From IMG/VR virus record IMGVR_UViG_3300038369_000238, positions 1 to 39,791 of that record: a DNA stretch of 39,791 bases; one strand, 5' to 3'. The translations under genes were made by a program, and so were the position numbers. Each line of letters begins with the position of its first letter. Position 1 is the stretch's first letter. Shown piece by piece: positions 23,018-35,505 of this stretch. The stretch comes from a virus. A model generated the notes under the pieces. It searched no databases. It worked only from the letters and a program-made list of their open reading frames with translations, and was not told where the DNA came from.

Positions 23018-23031
23018 TTCATTTATCCTAA
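23018..23031 (+). promoter_or_regulatory. Leader motif copy 2 (TTCATTTATCCTAA)
   Basis: One mismatch to TTCACTTATCCTAA; it ends 6 bases before the ATGACT start of the ArdC-like gene. It lies just after a terminator, so it could be a promoter element for a new transcript or an initiation signal replacing a Shine-Dalgarno. Confidence 0.6.
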
Positions 23032-23037
23032 AAAATT

Positions 23038-23949
23038 ATGACTGTTATGAATGGCCGTAAAAAAGCCGATTATGTAAAACCTGAAGAGCTAATAGTGAAT
23101 GAATTAATTCAGGCTCTTGAATCGGGAAAAACTAATTTATGGCGTAAAGAGTGGACAGTTAAAGGCGGTTTTAGAAATGTCTTATCAGGGCATGAGTATA
23201 AAGGCTCTAACCCTGCTCTACTCTGTTTACAGAGTTCTATTAGGGGTTGGCATTTACCACTCTTTATAGGAGCAGGTCAAGCCAAGTCTATTAACTGCCT
23301 ACCGAAAAAGGGTTCAAAATCTGCTCGGATTTTACAACCACTTTTAAGAGAATATGAAACGAAAGAACTTGACGTAAATGGGGAAGCAAAGAAAGCTCAA
23401 TATATGAGCTATAAATGCGTTCCAGTATTCAACGTTCAGGACATTCGTGGGTTAGATGATGAAGCATCAAAGAAATTAGAAAAGCTAATTGATGATGCTG
23501 TTCTAACTGCAAAGCCCAGAGAATTAGATGTCAGGGTTAAAGAAGCTCATGATCGTTTATTCCAATGGGAAAAACAGATCAACACTCTTGTAAAAGGTGG
23601 AGATCGGGCTTATTACAGAGAATCAAGTGATGAGATTGTTATCCCTAAAAGATACAACTTCAAAAATGATCAATCGTATTTAGCCACTTTCGCACATGAA
23701 GCAGTTCATTCAACAAAACATAAATCAAGACTTAATCGAAAAGATTTGACTTATGCGAATGAAGAATTAGTTGCTGAATTAGGAGCTTATCTAATTTGTA
23801 ATAGATTACAGATTTCTAATTTAGACACAATGAACCACGCCGCATATTTGGAAGCGTGGTGTCCAATGCTGAAAAGCGATCCAAAAATCCTTTTCAAATC
23901 ACTAGCTAATGCTAGTAAAGCTGCGGATATGGTAATAGGGGAGCAATAG
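23038..23949 (+). CDS. ardC: ArdC-like antirestriction protein (ssDNA-binding + zincin domain)
   Basis: 303 residues. The N-terminal DUF1738/ArdC part ('EELIVNELIQALESGKTNLW' at about 17-36; 'RNVLSGHEYKGSNPALLCLQ' at about 47-66; 'KGSKSARILQPLLREYE') is the ssDNA-binding domain. A C-terminal zincin-like metallopeptidase has HEAVH at about 220-224 and the distal 'NEELVAELGAYLICNRLQ' glutamate motif. ArdC proteins protect incoming DNA from type I restriction or act on host targets on entry, which suits its early position. The start follows a leader motif and its stop lies in a terminator loop. Confidence 0.85.
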   Translation: MTVMNGRKKADYVKPEELIVNELIQALESGKTNLWRKEWTVKGGFRNVLSGHEYKGSNPALLCLQSSIRGWHLPLFIGAGQAKSINCLPKKGSKSARILQPLLREYETKELDVNGEAKKAQYMSYKCVPVFNVQDIRGLDDEASKKLEKLIDDAVLTAKPRELDVRVKEAHDRLFQWEKQINTLVKGGDRAYYRESSDEIVIPKRYNFKNDQSYLATFAHEAVHSTKHKSRLNRKDLTYANEELVAELGAYLICNRLQISNLDTMNHAAYLEAWCPMLKSDPKILFKSLANASKAADMVIGEQ

Positions 23950-29069: not shown

Positions 29070-29353
29070 AATCTTTGCCAACCTTTTTTATTTCTATATG
29101 AATGGCCTTTTCTTCTAAACTTAAGTACGTTATGACTTTTAGGTTTCATTGAAGTTAAGTGCCAACCATTTCCTTTAGGACACTCATAAGCATATGAATG
29201 GCCTTTTCCTTTCTTGCACATTTCTGCTGCAATAATTTTTGCTTCTTCTTCTGATTTATAACTGACCTTATCGCATTTATAACAATGGCCTAAAACTATA
29301 AATCCTTTTTCGTGAATGTAACTTTGAAGGTTTAAAAAACTAAGACGCTGCAT
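29066..29353 (-). CDS. Small Cys/Lys-rich zinc-finger-like protein
   Basis: 95 residues from 29353 (MQRLSFLNLQSYIHEKGF), preferred over an upstream in-frame ATG inside the ribbon-helix-helix gene. 'HCYKCDKVSYKSEEEAKIIA' then 'ECPKGNGWHLTSMKPKS' is the small phage zinc-ribbon pattern 'YxCpxxxGWHLTS'. The unit KGHSY occurs twice. Likely nucleic-acid-binding; function unknown. Confidence 0.65.
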   Translation of the reverse strand: MQRLSFLNLQSYIHEKGFIVLGHCYKCDKVSYKSEEEAKIIAAEMCKKGKGHSYAYECPKGNGWHLTSMKPKSHNVLKFRRKGHSYRNKKGWQRL

Positions 29354-29642
29354 TTGTTGTTTCTTTTGGCTGTAAATCTTTCCATAATTCCATTTCAGGA
29401 GCTTCAGGCATAACATTTTTGTTAGCTAAAGATTCTTTCTCCCATTTCTCCATCTTCATTTCTTCCAATCTTTGTTCGATTACTGGCTGAAACATATCAT
29501 CAATAGCTCTTCTTATCATTGAAGATATTGAAGTTCCAGGGCGAGCATATTCTTTCAACAGTTCATACTGCGATTTAGTTACTTGAATGGAAATTCTCTG
29601 TAAAGAATTAGCATCCGAAAGTACGTCAGATAGTGGAGACAT
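29340..29642 (-). CDS. Ribbon-helix-helix regulator
   Basis: 100 residues. 'RISIQVTKSQYELLKEYARP' (about 16-35) then 'GTSISSMIRRAIDDMFQPVI' gives the beta strand, helix, turn, helix order of CopG/Arc-type repressors. The C-terminal third is charged and probably flexible. It could control the nearby divergent promoters at 30427-30466 or its own operon; the target is inference. Confidence 0.7.
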   Translation of the reverse strand: MSPLSDVLSDANSLQRISIQVTKSQYELLKEYARPGTSISSMIRRAIDDMFQPVIEQRLEEMKMEKWEKESLANKNVMPEAPEMELWKDLQPKETTNAAS

Positions 29643-29763: not shown

Positions 29764-30366
29764 TTATCCTCCGAAAGGATCTTCATAGGATAAAAGTTTC
29801 TTTAAGTCGAAACCTTTTGACTTAACTTTCTCCCATGCTGATTCCAACTCTGGTTGATCGTCTTCATCTTGTGGCTCTATTTGAACGTCATAGTTCCAAC
29901 GACCACCTTCTCTATCTAATGAAAGAGATAAATCCCATGCCATTAGATTTTTATACTTTCTGTTTAAAGATAATTTTCTAATTTTGCTAAGAATTTGATA
30001 TTGGTCTGCTTCTAAGATACGAACCATTTTGTTCTTGTAATCGTAGATAGGCCAAACGTATGTTTCTTTTGCTTCTGCTGGTTCTGTACTTTGGAATTTT
30101 GTTCCTCTTGTATAAGAACCACCCATTTCAGTAAGAATTTCTTCTTCTGTTGGTTTGCTCATAAATCTAAAGGATTTACCTTTTTCTCCGTGAACAGACT
30201 CTCCGTAAATTTTCCAAAAGATTAGGGGATCTTCTTCCAATAATGCGAAAGAAACTGGTTCTTTTGGATCTACTTTTGATGGGTTTAAATAAGAAGAAAC
30301 AAGTGGGCGATCCCCCTGCTCTTCTGCTTTTTTGACTTTTTCTTCAAAAGTGGCTGAAAATTTCAT
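29764..30366 (-). CDS. Probable single-stranded DNA-binding protein
   Basis: 200 residues. 'PVSFALLEEDPLIFWKIYGE' (about 37-56), 'ETYVWPIYDYKNKMVRILEA' (about 101-120) and 'YKNLMAWDLSLSLDREGGRW' (about 138-157) alternate strands in an OB-fold-like pattern with many aromatics. The acidic tail ends LSYEDPFGG, close to the DDxPF tip by which SSBs recruit partners. It sits between replication genes with its own promoter and terminator, suggesting high expression. The assignment rests on fold pattern and tail, not a definitive motif. Confidence 0.68.
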   Translation of the reverse strand: MKFSATFEEKVKKAEEQGDRPLVSSYLNPSKVDPKEPVSFALLEEDPLIFWKIYGESVHGEKGKSFRFMSKPTEEEILTEMGGSYTRGTKFQSTEPAEAKETYVWPIYDYKNKMVRILEADQYQILSKIRKLSLNRKYKNLMAWDLSLSLDREGGRWNYDVQIEPQDEDDQPELESAWEKVKSKGFDLKKLLSYEDPFGG

Positions 30367-30539: not shown

Positions 30540-32684
30540 ATGACAATTATTAGTTTCGTCAAGACTCTTCCAGAGAACCTCGTTTACGCACCTATATATA
30601 AAAAAGATGCACTAATGAAATCAGGCCGAAAGGCTACAGGTAAGAACCCATTAGAAGAATCATGGGAAAGAGATTTTGATAAGCATGATGTAGAACTTGC
30701 TATTGAAAAGAATCCTGATCTACAAGCAGTTGGACTTTATACAGGAATCAGAGGTAAAGGTATCGTAATCCTCGATATTGATAAAGACCATGCAGCATTA
30801 AAAAGAAAATGGTCTGAAACGCTTGTAGGTGCTCCTAAGATAACTTCTACTAAAAAAGATGCAGCAAAATATATCTTTAGCGTTCCAGAAGCTCTATGGG
30901 GTGAGGTAAAGGGTCATGGCCTTCGTAAAGAAGAAGGTGGTAATTATGAAATACTTTGGGGAAGAAGACAGGGTGTCATTTTTGGTGCTTACCCAGGTGG
31001 ACATAGTTCTGAAGAAGGTTTTTATACATTAACTGGTGATCTTTCAAAAATACCTGTAGCTCCTGCTTGGTTATTGGCTGAGATGAAAGCTCCTCCAAAA
31101 CCAATACAAAACAAAAAAGATTTAGATTTCAGCGATAGAACAGAAGATGAGATTGCTCAAATCATTCACGATTGCTTATCGGTTATTTCTCATCAGGGTT
31201 TAGGTAGTAGAGAACATTGGGTGAGAGTTGGAATGGCTATCCATTCTGCTTTACCTAACGATCTTGGTTTATCTTTATGGTCATTTTGGTCTGCTCAAGA
31301 TCCTGACTTTGCTGCTGAATGGGAAGATGCAGGAGATTATGATACTCCCTGCACTACTGCTTGGTATTCATTTAAAGGTGGTGGTATCGGATTAGGAACT
31401 CTTATTTGGTTAGCTGATAGGGAAGATCCTGAGAGACATAGATTCTCTGCTGAAAATAAAAAGATTGTCAAAGAAGCTGAAGAGAAAAAAGTTCAAGAAG
31501 TTAGAACATCAACTCTTGATTTTGGCGATGTAATTAAACGTGCCAAAAATATTCTTGAGTTGGATAACCCTGCCGAGATGAACTACAAGTTGAATACTTT
31601 GGCATTGAAAGCTGGTTATAGAGATCAATCATCTTTAGAAAAACTTATTGTCGATCAGATTCAATATGAAAGCCAGAAAGGTATTCTTGATATAGCTGAT
31701 CTTTTTGCATTAGATATTCAAAGGGAATACTTGATACCTGACATTCTTCCTACTCCTTCAGTTGTTCTTATATATGGTGCTGGTGGAGATGGTAAATCCA
31801 TGAGTGCTTGGACTATGGCAAAACATATTGCTACTGGAGATCCTTTCCTAGTTAGAGGTAGTAAAGTTCCTGTAGATCAAGGTAATGTTCTGCTACTGAA
31901 TGGCGATCAACCATTATCTCAATTAAAAGAACAGTTAGAAGAAGTTAACTTTCCTATTGAAAGCAACGTAAAAATTCAAACTGATTGGCAGTTGCAAAGA
32001 TATGCTCAGTTTATTAAGTTGATGCAAACTTATACTCCAAAACTAGTTGTGATTGACTCTTTGATTGGTTGTAGCGGTGGTAGAGCTTTTGATGAAAACA
32101 AATCAGACTTTGCTCAACCTTTGTATTGGCTAACTAGAAATAACGGGGTTCTCTTTCCAAGAACTACTATCCTTATCATTCATCACGCTAATAAGAATGG
32201 TGGATTTAGAGGAACTTCAGCTATCAGAGATGCTGTTGATGAAACTTGGAAGTTATCTAAACCGACCCAAGAACAAGTAAATAAGGTAGGTCGTAATAGC
32301 AGATTTATTACTATCGAAAAATCTAGATCTGGAAGAATGGGGACTCAAATGATAATGAAGATGAAAGATGATCTTACCTTCGCTATCGCTGATTATACTC
32401 CTGAAGTTTCTGATGATTCTGGATCTCCTACAACTGTTCAAGATAAAGTTCTTCAGAAGTTAAGGAAGATACACCCAGAAACTTATACCATAAATCAAAT
32501 GATTCACGATCCAATGGTTGATGGTAAAGATGCTGCGATAAGAAAATCGTTCCAAAGATTACTTAAAAAAGGTCTTATTGAAGTGTGTGTTGATGCCTTT
32601 GAAGATGATAATTCTACTAAGTCTTATAGAGCAGTCCTCGCACGGGGAGAGGGTGCATATCTTGTCCCATTAGAAGAATCTTAG
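30540..32684 (+). CDS. Bifunctional primase-polymerase / RecA-fold helicase
   Basis: 714 residues. The N-terminal PrimPol domain (about 10-190) has 'GIVILDIDKDHAALKRKW' with catalytic DxD and 'ITSTKKDAAKYIFSVPE'. A PriCT-2-type segment (about 205-300) has 'GSREHWVRVGMAIHSALPND' and 'AWYSFKGGGIGLGTLIWLAD'. The RecA/RepA-like ATPase has Walker A GAGGDGKS at about 413-420, Walker B 'KLVVIDSLIG' near 500 and sensor 'TILIIHHANKNGGFRGTSAI'. A winged helix lies at about 640-690. It likely primes and unwinds at the origin, with the iteron array at its 3' end. No separate polymerase gene was found. Confidence 0.9.
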   Translation: MTIISFVKTLPENLVYAPIYKKDALMKSGRKATGKNPLEESWERDFDKHDVELAIEKNPDLQAVGLYTGIRGKGIVILDIDKDHAALKRKWSETLVGAPKITSTKKDAAKYIFSVPEALWGEVKGHGLRKEEGGNYEILWGRRQGVIFGAYPGGHSSEEGFYTLTGDLSKIPVAPAWLLAEMKAPPKPIQNKKDLDFSDRTEDEIAQIIHDCLSVISHQGLGSREHWVRVGMAIHSALPNDLGLSLWSFWSAQDPDFAAEWEDAGDYDTPCTTAWYSFKGGGIGLGTLIWLADREDPERHRFSAENKKIVKEAEEKKVQEVRTSTLDFGDVIKRAKNILELDNPAEMNYKLNTLALKAGYRDQSSLEKLIVDQIQYESQKGILDIADLFALDIQREYLIPDILPTPSVVLIYGAGGDGKSMSAWTMAKHIATGDPFLVRGSKVPVDQGNVLLLNGDQPLSQLKEQLEEVNFPIESNVKIQTDWQLQRYAQFIKLMQTYTPKLVVIDSLIGCSGGRAFDENKSDFAQPLYWLTRNNGVLFPRTTILIIHHANKNGGFRGTSAIRDAVDETWKLSKPTQEQVNKVGRNSRFITIEKSRSGRMGTQMIMKMKDDLTFAIADYTPEVSDDSGSPTTVQDKVLQKLRKIHPETYTINQMIHDPMVDGKDAAIRKSFQRLLKKGLIEVCVDAFEDDNSTKSYRAVLARGEGAYLVPLEES

Positions 32685-32831
32685 TCGTACCAATAGATTT
32701 CAATGGGACAACTATGTGAGACAAGATAGATTGTCCCATTATAATTGGAACGTGAGACAACTTTACTTGTCCCATACCCTTGTCCCACACCAAATCAATG
32801 CTGTGGAGCGTGATTATAGAGAATGGGACAA
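32662..32831. repeat. Dyad-symmetric iteron array (candidate replication origin)
   Basis: Eight copies of TTGTCYCAY: forward at 32662, 32731, 32767 and 32780; inverted at 32703, 32716, 32752 and 32823 (leftmost bases). Six inner copies are placed with exact mirror symmetry about 32745.5 and the outer pair is off by 1 bp. The spacers are not conserved, so selection is on the nonamers, as for protein binding sites. It lies at the 3' end of the primase-helicase gene and fills the gap behind it. Confidence 0.8.
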
Positions 32832-32886
32832 TTTCAGCCACTCTCCCCAGAGAAAACACTAAATAACATTATTAGAATCTGAATCT

Positions 32887-32985
32887 ATGACTACAGAACA
32901 GAGAATTGAAGCCGCAAAACAACGAATTGCTGAATTGGAACGTTTAATTGAGTATTGGACAAAAGTTAATACAACGAGATTGTGA
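32887..32985 (+). CDS. Tiny coiled-coil peptide
   Basis: 32 residues (MTTEQRIEAAKQRIAELERL, then IEYWTKVNTTRL), a single amphipathic helix. No strong Shine-Dalgarno. Small 'RIAELERLIEYW' helices are frequent in phage small genes. Function unknown. Confidence 0.45.
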   Translation: MTTEQRIEAAKQRIAELERLIEYWTKVNTTRL

Positions 32986-33009
32986 TAATATAGTTTTAAA
33001 AAGATATTC

Positions 33010-33306
33010 ATGGCTCAATCTGGTAAGAATCCTCGAGGAAACAAAAAATATTACCATGTTTTGATAGACATAAATCGAGGAGAACTTTTCGATAAATACA
33101 TTAGAGAGGAACTAAAAGTTAAGCCTACGTCTTGGATTCGAGATATTGTTTATAAATTTTTACAAGACAATATTGATGAGAGAGAGTACAATGAAGCTCT
33201 AAAGAAAGATGAGGAAAATTGGAAAAAAGTTATTCAGAATCGATTACAAGGCAGGGCATTATCAAGACTTCTCAACTCAATCAACAACAAATCAAACCAA
33301 AAATAG
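33010..33306 (+). CDS. Ribbon-helix-helix-like small protein
   Basis: 98 residues. 'KKYYHVLIDINRGELFDKYI' (about 12-31) then 'KPTSWIRDIVYKFLQDNIDE' (about 38-57) gives a strand, helix and a second helix opening with a W-I-R motif, like CopG-type regulators. A helical tail follows. It could regulate the origin or neighbouring genes; unproven. Confidence 0.58.
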   Translation: MAQSGKNPRGNKKYYHVLIDINRGELFDKYIREELKVKPTSWIRDIVYKFLQDNIDEREYNEALKKDEENWKKVIQNRLQGRALSRLLNSINNKSNQK

Positions 33307-34133: not shown

Positions 34134-34556
34134 ATGGCAGAGAAACCAAAAGATTTACCAGAAAAAACAAAAGAATTAGAAGATGATAAGCCTGATTATC
34201 AGGAAAAAATTACTTTTCTAGTTTCTACTATTGCACAGGCATTTATCTTAACTTGGTGTTTATTAGTTTTGTCTCTTGGATATATCAAACTTCCTAATAA
34301 ATTATTTGGAATAGATATACCAGATCAGCCAAGAGTAGATAGTACTTTTGCTGCTGGATTGTTAGGAAATATTTTAGGTGGATTAGGAATAAGTGTTAAT
34401 GCAGCACAGGGAGCAAAGAAGAAAAAGAAAGAAGAAGGAGAAAATGGTGTTATTGGTAACTCTAATGGAGGCACTCAAACCATCATAATAAAGCAACCAT
34501 TAGAAATCGTCACAACAAAACCTGACGTAATCAAAGTCGATCCCACAAAAAAATGA
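34134..34556 (+). CDS. Membrane protein, holin-like or virion-associated candidate
   Basis: 140 residues. A charged N-terminus (about 1-24) is followed by one hydrophobic segment ('ITFLVSTIAQAFILTWCLLV', about 26-45, extending to LSLGY), a Gly/Leu-rich stretch (about 73-88) that may be a second membrane or amphipathic segment, then a Lys run and a polar tail. It leads the secreted-protein trio. One or two membrane segments plus the charged end allow a holin role, but nothing proves it. Confidence 0.6.
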   Translation: MAEKPKDLPEKTKELEDDKPDYQEKITFLVSTIAQAFILTWCLLVLSLGYIKLPNKLFGIDIPDQPRVDSTFAAGLLGNILGGLGISVNAAQGAKKKKKEEGENGVIGNSNGGTQTIIIKQPLEIVTTKPDVIKVDPTKK

Positions 34557-35071
34557 AAAAACTAATTCCACTTTTACTATTAGCAACAACACCTGCTTAC
34601 GCTAATATCAAACAGGAATTTGTAACCTCTGCACAAATTTCTATTGACTCACCTTATGTAATTACAAATGCAGCACCATCTAGCTACAGCATAAGCGGAA
34701 ACAATATCACTACATCTACAGGAACTGGAGATAATATTGTAACTAATGGAATTGGTGGATTAAATCTTGGTAGTTTCGGTAATAATGGAGCACCAAACGC
34801 AATACATACAAATAAAACAGTAACAACTGCTGGATCAGCGTTCTCTTTATCGGAAAGTTATCAAGCTGGAGATGGAACACAAACTGCAATCACTCCTTCT
34901 AGCGGTATAGCAACTCTTCCTGTTCTTGGAGGTCAGACTACTGTTATCTCAGGAGGTACTGCTGGATCTCTTGCCCTAACGTCATTAAGTTCGGGGATTC
35001 ATACCTGTACTGCTGGAGGGTCAGGTACAAGCTGCGTAGGTTCAACTAAAGTAACCATAACCATAGATTGA
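34553..35071 (+). CDS. Secreted or periplasmic protein of cyanophage type
   Basis: 172 residues with a clear Sec signal peptide (MKKLIPLLLLATTPAYA, cleavage likely after AYA). The mature part is Ser/Thr/Gly-rich and beta-like ('NNITTSTGTGDNIVTNGIGG'), with a C-terminal Cys pair (HTCTAGGSGTSCVG). It resembles cyanomyovirus proteins of unknown function. Probably exported to the host periplasm or surface. Confidence 0.68.
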   Translation: MKKLIPLLLLATTPAYANIKQEFVTSAQISIDSPYVITNAAPSSYSISGNNITTSTGTGDNIVTNGIGGLNLGSFGNNGAPNAIHTNKTVTTAGSAFSLSESYQAGDGTQTAITPSSGIATLPVLGGQTTVISGGTAGSLALTSLSSGIHTCTAGGSGTSCVGSTKVTITID

Positions 35072-35505
35072 CTAGACTTTGGTTATTAGTTTTACTATTA
35101 TGTCCTATAAGAACATTTGCTGTTCCTGTAGTTCCACAATTTCGTTCGGGTAGTTCTCAGACAAGCTCGACCTCAGAATCAGTAATAAATGAAACTATTA
35201 CAAGTCATCAGTATCGAACAGGATATTCATATTCTGCGTCAGGGCATAATATTGAAAGTAATGACATTAATGGATATATCAACCCTACAGCTACAACTCT
35301 TACAGAACAAACTGTTGGAGGGGTAAGTTTTAGTTGGACTTCACCAAATCTCGAAGCAGTTCCAAGATGGAAAGTGGTAACTCCAGGGGCAGCCTTTTCT
35401 CTTCAAGAAACTCTAATAACTCCAGGGTTAGATACAGTAACCACAATAACAAGGACAATAAATACAACAACCACAACAGAAACTACAACTACATTTGGGC
35501 AATAG
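35068..35505 (+). CDS. Secreted protein of cyanophage type
   Basis: 145 residues with a Sec signal (MTRLWLLVLLLCPIRTFA). The mature part is Ser/Thr-rich and ends in a long Thr run. The ATGA overlap with the previous gene indicates coupling. The two proteins look like diverged relatives in organisation (signal plus Ser/Thr-rich beta region). Function unknown. Confidence 0.66.
   Translation: MTRLWLLVLLLCPIRTFAVPVVPQFRSGSSQTSSTSESVINETITSHQYRTGYSYSASGHNIESNDINGYINPTATTLTEQTVGGVSFSWTSPNLEAVPRWKVVTPGAAFSLQETLITPGLDTVTTITRTINTTTTTETTTTFGQ

Follow-up and report, generated by a model that had tools for sequence, protein, structure and literature searches.

A conserved mirror-symmetric array of TGTC-core nonamers behind the PrimPol-helicase gene is a candidate replication origin in a family of uncultured marine siphophages

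Background

Among the replicons described to date, the Sulfolobus plasmid pRN1 and the origin proposed for Bordetella phage BIP-1 appear, by analogy, to be the nearest to the system analyzed here. The pRN1 protein ORF904 combines a PrimPol, a helicase and a winged helix, and the plasmid origin maps within 166 bp downstream of orf904; it is a stem-loop of ~100 nt, conserved in structure and devoid of iterons, and a comparable stem-loop origin has been proposed for BIP-1 (PMC4234260). In pRN1, the PrimPol is paired with ORF56, a ribbon-helix-helix (RHH) repressor (PMC3543421). For the NrS-1 PrimPol, the start site TTTGGTTA, a single-strand template sequence of 8 nt, has been described in two copies (PMC7102993, PMC8718748). 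The oriV of RSF1010 relies on the RepA helicase, the RepB' primase and the RepC initiator, which acts on iterons, and the alpha protein of P4 carries a primase of the Toprim type and a winged helix that binds origin repeats (PMC4234260).

The phage family studied here shares with pRN1 and BIP-1 a PrimPol-helicase fusion that ends in a winged helix, as well as a (putative) origin that lies directly behind the replication gene, contains a symmetric element and has a proposed bidirectional start; with pRN1 it also shares the presence of an RHH gene in the replicon. In contrast to the pRN1 stem-loop, the phage element consists of six to eight putative duplex sites with no stem conservation. The pRN1 helicase belongs to SF3, whereas that of the phages is RepA/RecA-like, and ORF56 is a repressor encoded upstream, unlike the RHH protein of the phage family. 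NrS-1 likewise combines a marine phage PrimPol-helicase and an SSB with a short site, present in opposite orientations, that has been suggested as an origin, but the phage-family array has six to eight sites of another sequence at fixed spacing and, presumably, in duplex DNA. A RepA-type hexameric helicase (predicted from a weak match to RSF1010 RepA, PDB 1g8y), a separate putative iteron-binding initiator and primase sites are reminiscent of RSF1010, where these functions reside in separate polypeptides, iterons and the hairpins ssiA/ssiB, as opposed to a PrimPol-helicase fusion, an inverted mirror array and an RHH protein. P4 alpha is also a primase-helicase fusion with a winged helix, which in P4 binds short repeats; we know of no RHH partner or mirror geometry in P4. 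Unlike classical iteron origins, the phage array has neither direct repeats nor an AT-rich unwinding element, and no description of such an origin, or of a phage RHH initiator, was found in the open-access literature.

In this work we analyze an array of nonamers first noticed in a single viral record of IMG/VR, the 39,791 nucleotides of which constitute the window referred to below. The original prediction interpreted the array as a replication origin of unfamiliar design and named a multi-operator for an RHH protein as the main alternative. Our results outline a layout that is conserved across a family of phages and that likely marks their origin of replication.

Methods

Close relatives were obtained by searching IMG/VR with the PrimPol-helicase, yielding 51 loci, 44 of which include the 3′ end of the gene. 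Distant helicases, down to 41% identity, were collected with aligned queries. A TGTC core was demanded when collecting sites, and its 100% conservation is therefore partly by construction. All intervals in the array skeleton are distances between TGTC cores.

Results

The window contains no more than eight exact TTGTCYCAY nonamers, all of them confined to 170 bp. The expectation from the window's dinucleotide model is 1.5 exact instances per window and 0.0065 per 170 bp, and the probability of observing at least eight within any one 170-bp stretch is ~3e-18. When one mismatch is allowed, the genome-wide count (38) is no higher than chance (35), so the signal resides in the exact cluster. The nonamers follow the order F R R F / R F F R, and are hence inverted rather than arranged as direct head-to-tail repeats. 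The outer left site 1 (32662..32670, + strand, TTGTCCCAT) falls, as originally reported, within the 3′ end of the PrimPol-helicase ORF (30540-32684), and is followed by site 2 (32703..32711, −, TTGTCCCAT), site 3 in the middle of the left half (32716..32724, −, TTGTCTCAC) and the inner left site 4 (32731..32739, +, TTGTCCCAT). Across the central spacer (32740..32751) lie the inner right site 5 (32752..32760, −, TTGTCTCAC), site 6 in the middle of the right half (32767..32775, +, TTGTCCCAT), site 7 (32780..32788, +, TTGTCCCAC) and the outer right site 8 (32823..32831, −, TTGTCCCAT). Positions, orientations and start spacings (41, 13, 15, 21, 15, 13, 43) agree with the original prediction, and so does the exact common centre of the three inner pairs at 32745.5; the outer pair, for which no such claim had been made, has its centre displaced by 1 bp, at 32746.5. 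Neither the array nor its flanks contain an AT-rich unwinding element, AT content being close to the locus mean with no peak. The TATAATT in the central spacer was considered as a promoter and rejected, given that TATAAT is not conserved in relatives.

The expectation that order and spacing would be kept while spacers drift holds in all 44 close relatives, each of which has the array behind the helicase gene. The sole exception in layout is the length of the centre in two loci (L024 and L036), the first of which has an 11-bp insertion at the array centre with all other spacings unchanged. Inexact sites in these relatives are near variants that retain TGTC; site 1 has decayed to CTGTCTCAT or CTGTCCCAT in a single sub-clade. 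Invariant columns make up 76% of the sites versus 32% of the spacers (p ~2e-9 for the non-coding part).

In distant relatives the sites are again located behind the helicase gene or in its 3′ end, and a common skeleton, F-46-R-(13)-26-F-gap-R-26-(13)-F-46-R, is fitted by 107 of 118 phylogenetically non-independent loci, reaching down to ~50% helicase identity. Its inner part is exactly symmetric in 99 of these 107 loci, and the left outer interval is 44 rather than 46 in the clade of the window. The clade at ~50% identity has six sites, lacking the equivalent of site 3, with intervals of 47, 23, gap, 23 and 47. The 11 non-fitting loci include one truncated locus (L223), clades in which one inner site is shifted by ~11 bp or degraded (L187-L189, L191-L193, L212), and L207, a locus with a 41% helicase where TTGTCCCACC sites form mirrored F F ... 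R R pairs ~122 bp apart (2663-2829). Scanning 11 near-complete genomes with the skeleton returned a single match in nine, always at the array, and none in the remaining two, which represent clades with displaced or degraded sites; control windows gave no match, whether reversed (4,458) or shuffled (3,300). A search with the central half-site pattern recovered contigs that carry the array together with the same gene set, as well as solitary chance pairs that lack these genes. Locus-specific site motifs cluster nowhere but in the array, which thus occurs once per genome and adjoins the helicase gene, as expected of an iteron-type origin. The helicase stop codon, meanwhile, slides relative to the sites, from one site being coding to all of them, indicating that it is the DNA layout, and not the gene end, that is conserved.

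No close relative was detected among the cultured phages in the collection by tblastn with the window, ~50% and 41% helicases and a distant RHH protein. The match to the helicase of phage S-CBS4 is confined to the motor domain, and no comparable repeats lie behind that gene. In cyanophage S-2L (L272), a non-coding region behind the PrimPol gene (23020-23330) harbors many short inverted repeats, including four of the five genome copies of GGGGGGGT and six of the 32 copies of TGTGCY; this region is possibly an origin of another design, in which mirror symmetry is not clear.

The geometry of the array persists where the site sequence itself differs by clade, taking the forms TGTCCCAT, TGTCCTAT, TGTCCAGGG, TGTCCCACC, TGTCCCCCC, TGTCGCATT or TGTCACATT. 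The five letters after TGTC differ on average at 1.36 positions within a genome versus 2.55 between genomes, a pattern like that of a binding site co-evolving with its protein. The half-arrays are rigid, whereas the central gap varies in steps of ~11 bp, with observed states of 12, 23-25, 34-35, 55-56, 68, 79 and 112 in the eight-site class and of 28 and 40 in the six-site clade. The unique states of the eight-site class support a period of ~11.1 bp (scan-corrected p ~0.0006). A period closer to 11 than to 10.5 is expected for looping of supercoiled DNA in cells.

The array is delimited at both outer ends by GC-rich boxes (CTCGYGCGNGGRGA) that point inward. The left box (32637..32651, +, CTCGCACGGGGAGAG) doubles as the LARGE codons of the helicase C-terminus, and the right one (32841..32848, −, CTCTCCCC, or GGGGAGAG on the − strand) is kept even where the next gene differs; the mirroring of the left box against the right flank has a mean z of 2.8 over 28 representatives. 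A second element occupies the right outer interval (32802..32810, +, TGTGGAGCG; family form GTGNTGGARCGGGATTT) and, in a weak version, the left one (32686..32693, +, CGTACCAA, which becomes TGTGGAGCG in L024 and L036). In many clades, the GTGNTGGARCGGGATTT elements of the 46-bp outer intervals are in direct orientation, and they might specify a direction or be used by the helicase or primase. Boundary boxes and second elements are less uniform than the main sites. The small-ORF slot between the array and the RHH gene (32850-33009) is a hypervariable insertion site in close relatives (L007, L008, L016, L017, L042, L045), where it may be empty or contain a coiled-coil-like peptide of 28-34 aa or an unrelated small gene.

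The gene preceding the array (30540..32684, +) encodes a PrimPol, a PriCT-2 domain, a RepA-type helicase and a C-terminal region modelled as a winged helix. Residues 30-282 match a PHROG DNA primase, and Pfam matches comprise PriCT_2 (1e-12) and AAA_25 (3e-19); together with the weak match to RSF1010 RepA, the latter assigns the motor to this group instead of SF3. Divergently oriented upstream of it, a 200-aa ssDNA-binding protein (SSB; 29764..30366, −) belongs to a family in which eight of 17 members match PHROG 1607, and in 83 of 83 loci its gene lies upstream in the opposite orientation. The 98-aa protein encoded behind the array (33010..33306, +) has no Pfam match of its own, while members of its family match DUF6290 (6/15) and RHH_9 (3/15). 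Its model places helices at residues 21-35 and 39-54 after a strand region (mean pLDDT 88), and Foldseek, run on the monomer model, returned weak RHH matches only, led by ParD and Reg576; with a predicted strand-helix-helix fold and RHH profile matches in its family, we regard the protein as RHH-like.

Among the early genes compared, only those for an exonuclease, the SSB, the PrimPol-helicase and this RHH protein are present in all ten near-complete relatives; other small early genes, including one for a second RHH protein, are variable, and there is no conservation of the genes that follow the array. The second RHH protein (29340-29642) has weak similarity to RelB antitoxins and is not retained in distant relatives. 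Elsewhere in the window, two adjoining function-unassigned genes (34553-35505) are found in nine of the ten relatives at 30-56% identity, the DNA at ~33.9-35 kb matches Prochlorococcus phages MED4-184, P-HS2 and MED4-117, and 23038-23949 encodes an ArdC-type anti-restriction protein with a zincin-like metallopeptidase domain. Four contigs of the family (L214, L215, L216 and L217) were placed in unrelated MAGs, named as proteobacterium, Microbacteriaceae, Planctomycetota and Saprospirales, and are likely viral contamination of these bins.

The RHH gene was identified in 110 of the 118 loci. Seven of the eight loci without it have less than 1.5 kb of downstream sequence, and the eighth (L216) has no such gene in 4 kb. 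Where found, the RHH gene may directly follow the array or be separated from it by up to 5 kb, whereas the array keeps its place next to the helicase gene. The array is therefore linked to the PrimPol-helicase gene rather than to that of the RHH protein.

Discussion

On the basis of these comparisons, we consider it likely that phages of this family initiate replication at the array. The part of the original prediction that concerns layout stands: order and spacing are conserved despite drift in both spacers and sites, and the array is unique in each genome and associated with the PrimPol-helicase, the SSB and the RHH protein. Its function is what we infer from this association. GC skew is at most weakly consistent with this reading and does not locate the origin: genes running in the same direction as forks from the array have the higher own-sense GC3 skew in 10 of 11 genomes, but the array averages only the 74th percentile of candidate positions.

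Under the mechanism we propose, a small, dimeric phage-coded protein, for which the RHH protein encoded at 33010 is the most likely candidate, would bind the TGTC-core nonamers as duplex DNA, and two inverted half-complexes would assemble on F R R F and its mirror. The half-complexes would have to share a helix face across the centre, giving rise to one symmetric complex that would load the PrimPol-helicase on both sides, facing in opposite directions. The helicase would then open the DNA, the SSB would coat it and the primase-polymerase would start synthesis both ways. We lean towards this model as a whole, in which origin, RHH-bound symmetric complex and two-sided loading go together; bidirectional loading, taken on its own, is in our view evenly poised. 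That the RHH protein represents a new kind of initiator, loading two PrimPol-helicases in opposite directions from a phased mirror array without an AT-rich unwinding element, is put forward tentatively.

We favor the RHH protein as the binder of the nonamers, with some reservation, because it is the only small DNA-binding protein that is kept and because site changes among relatives are accompanied by hardly any change in the recognition helix of the winged helix. The second RHH protein was rejected for this role, as it is missing from most relatives. Site distance and RHH distance are correlated over and above helicase distance; the SSB control is nearly as strong, and co-evolution therefore does not name the binder. 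That the nonamers are instead bound by the winged helix of the helicase seems rather unlikely, and a slightly lower probability attaches to the fuller alternative of the same origin in which this domain is the binder, following the precedent of P4 alpha, while the RHH protein regulates copy number in the manner of ORF56 of pRN1. The C-terminus (residues ~632-684) is modelled as a winged helix and its coding sequence always adjoins the array, P4 alpha uses such a domain on origin repeats (PMC4234260), and a PrimPol and an RHH repressor are paired in pRN1 (PMC3543421; PMC4234260). Against this, the recognition-helix region AIRKSxQRL is nearly constant while the sites differ among relatives, and winged-helix distance and site distance are unrelated (r 0.02) after controlling for RHH and SSB. 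Furthermore, the sites form no cluster at the promoter of the helicase gene, the expected target of an RHH repressor.

Short repeated operators are the usual targets of RHH proteins, and in the window the RHH gene starts 180 bp downstream of the array, in line with a multi-operator through which the protein would control transcription. We deem this reading very unlikely. With its gene up to 5 kb off in relatives, the array is not a local operator of the RHH protein, and in the window the gene has its own extended −10-like sequence just before the start, without sites. Moreover, the array contains no conserved promoter, is not followed by conserved genes and, in many loci, lies partly or wholly in coding sequence. 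The operator alternative of the original prediction is thus weakened as regards transcriptional control, while the RHH protein is still the best candidate binder, and the two ideas of an origin and of RHH binding probably merge.

A partition centromere, or a packaging or recombination site, is less probable still. RHH proteins act as centromere binders in plasmids and symmetric repeated sites occur in recombination sites too, but the early genes present in all relatives include neither a partition ATPase nor a site-specific recombinase, and the array lies behind the PrimPol-helicase gene rather than the terminase (19.7-21.5 kb). Least credible is a single-stranded stem-loop origin of the kind proposed for pRN1 and BIP-1, with the symmetry serving hairpin folding: the array does lie behind the PrimPol-helicase gene (as in PMC4234260) and, as ssDNA, folds more stably than its shuffled versions (z −5.3), but its arms match at the sites only (85%, against 0.229 in spacers where 0.231 is expected, 23 representatives), with no compensatory spacer changes, pointing to putative duplex protein sites and to the reverse of pRN1, where structure is conserved and sequence is not.

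Conclusions

For uncultured marine siphophages with a PrimPol-helicase, a widespread lineage, the array provides a candidate origin that is defined in sequence and open to testing. It bears on how PrimPol replicons such as pRN1 and NrS-1 choose their start point. Its ~11-bp phasing and rigid half-arrays supply natural variants in centre length, from 12 to 112 bp, for the study of bidirectional helicase loading. If the RHH protein is indeed the initiator, a fold associated with repression, partition and conjugation would gain a role in origin recognition.
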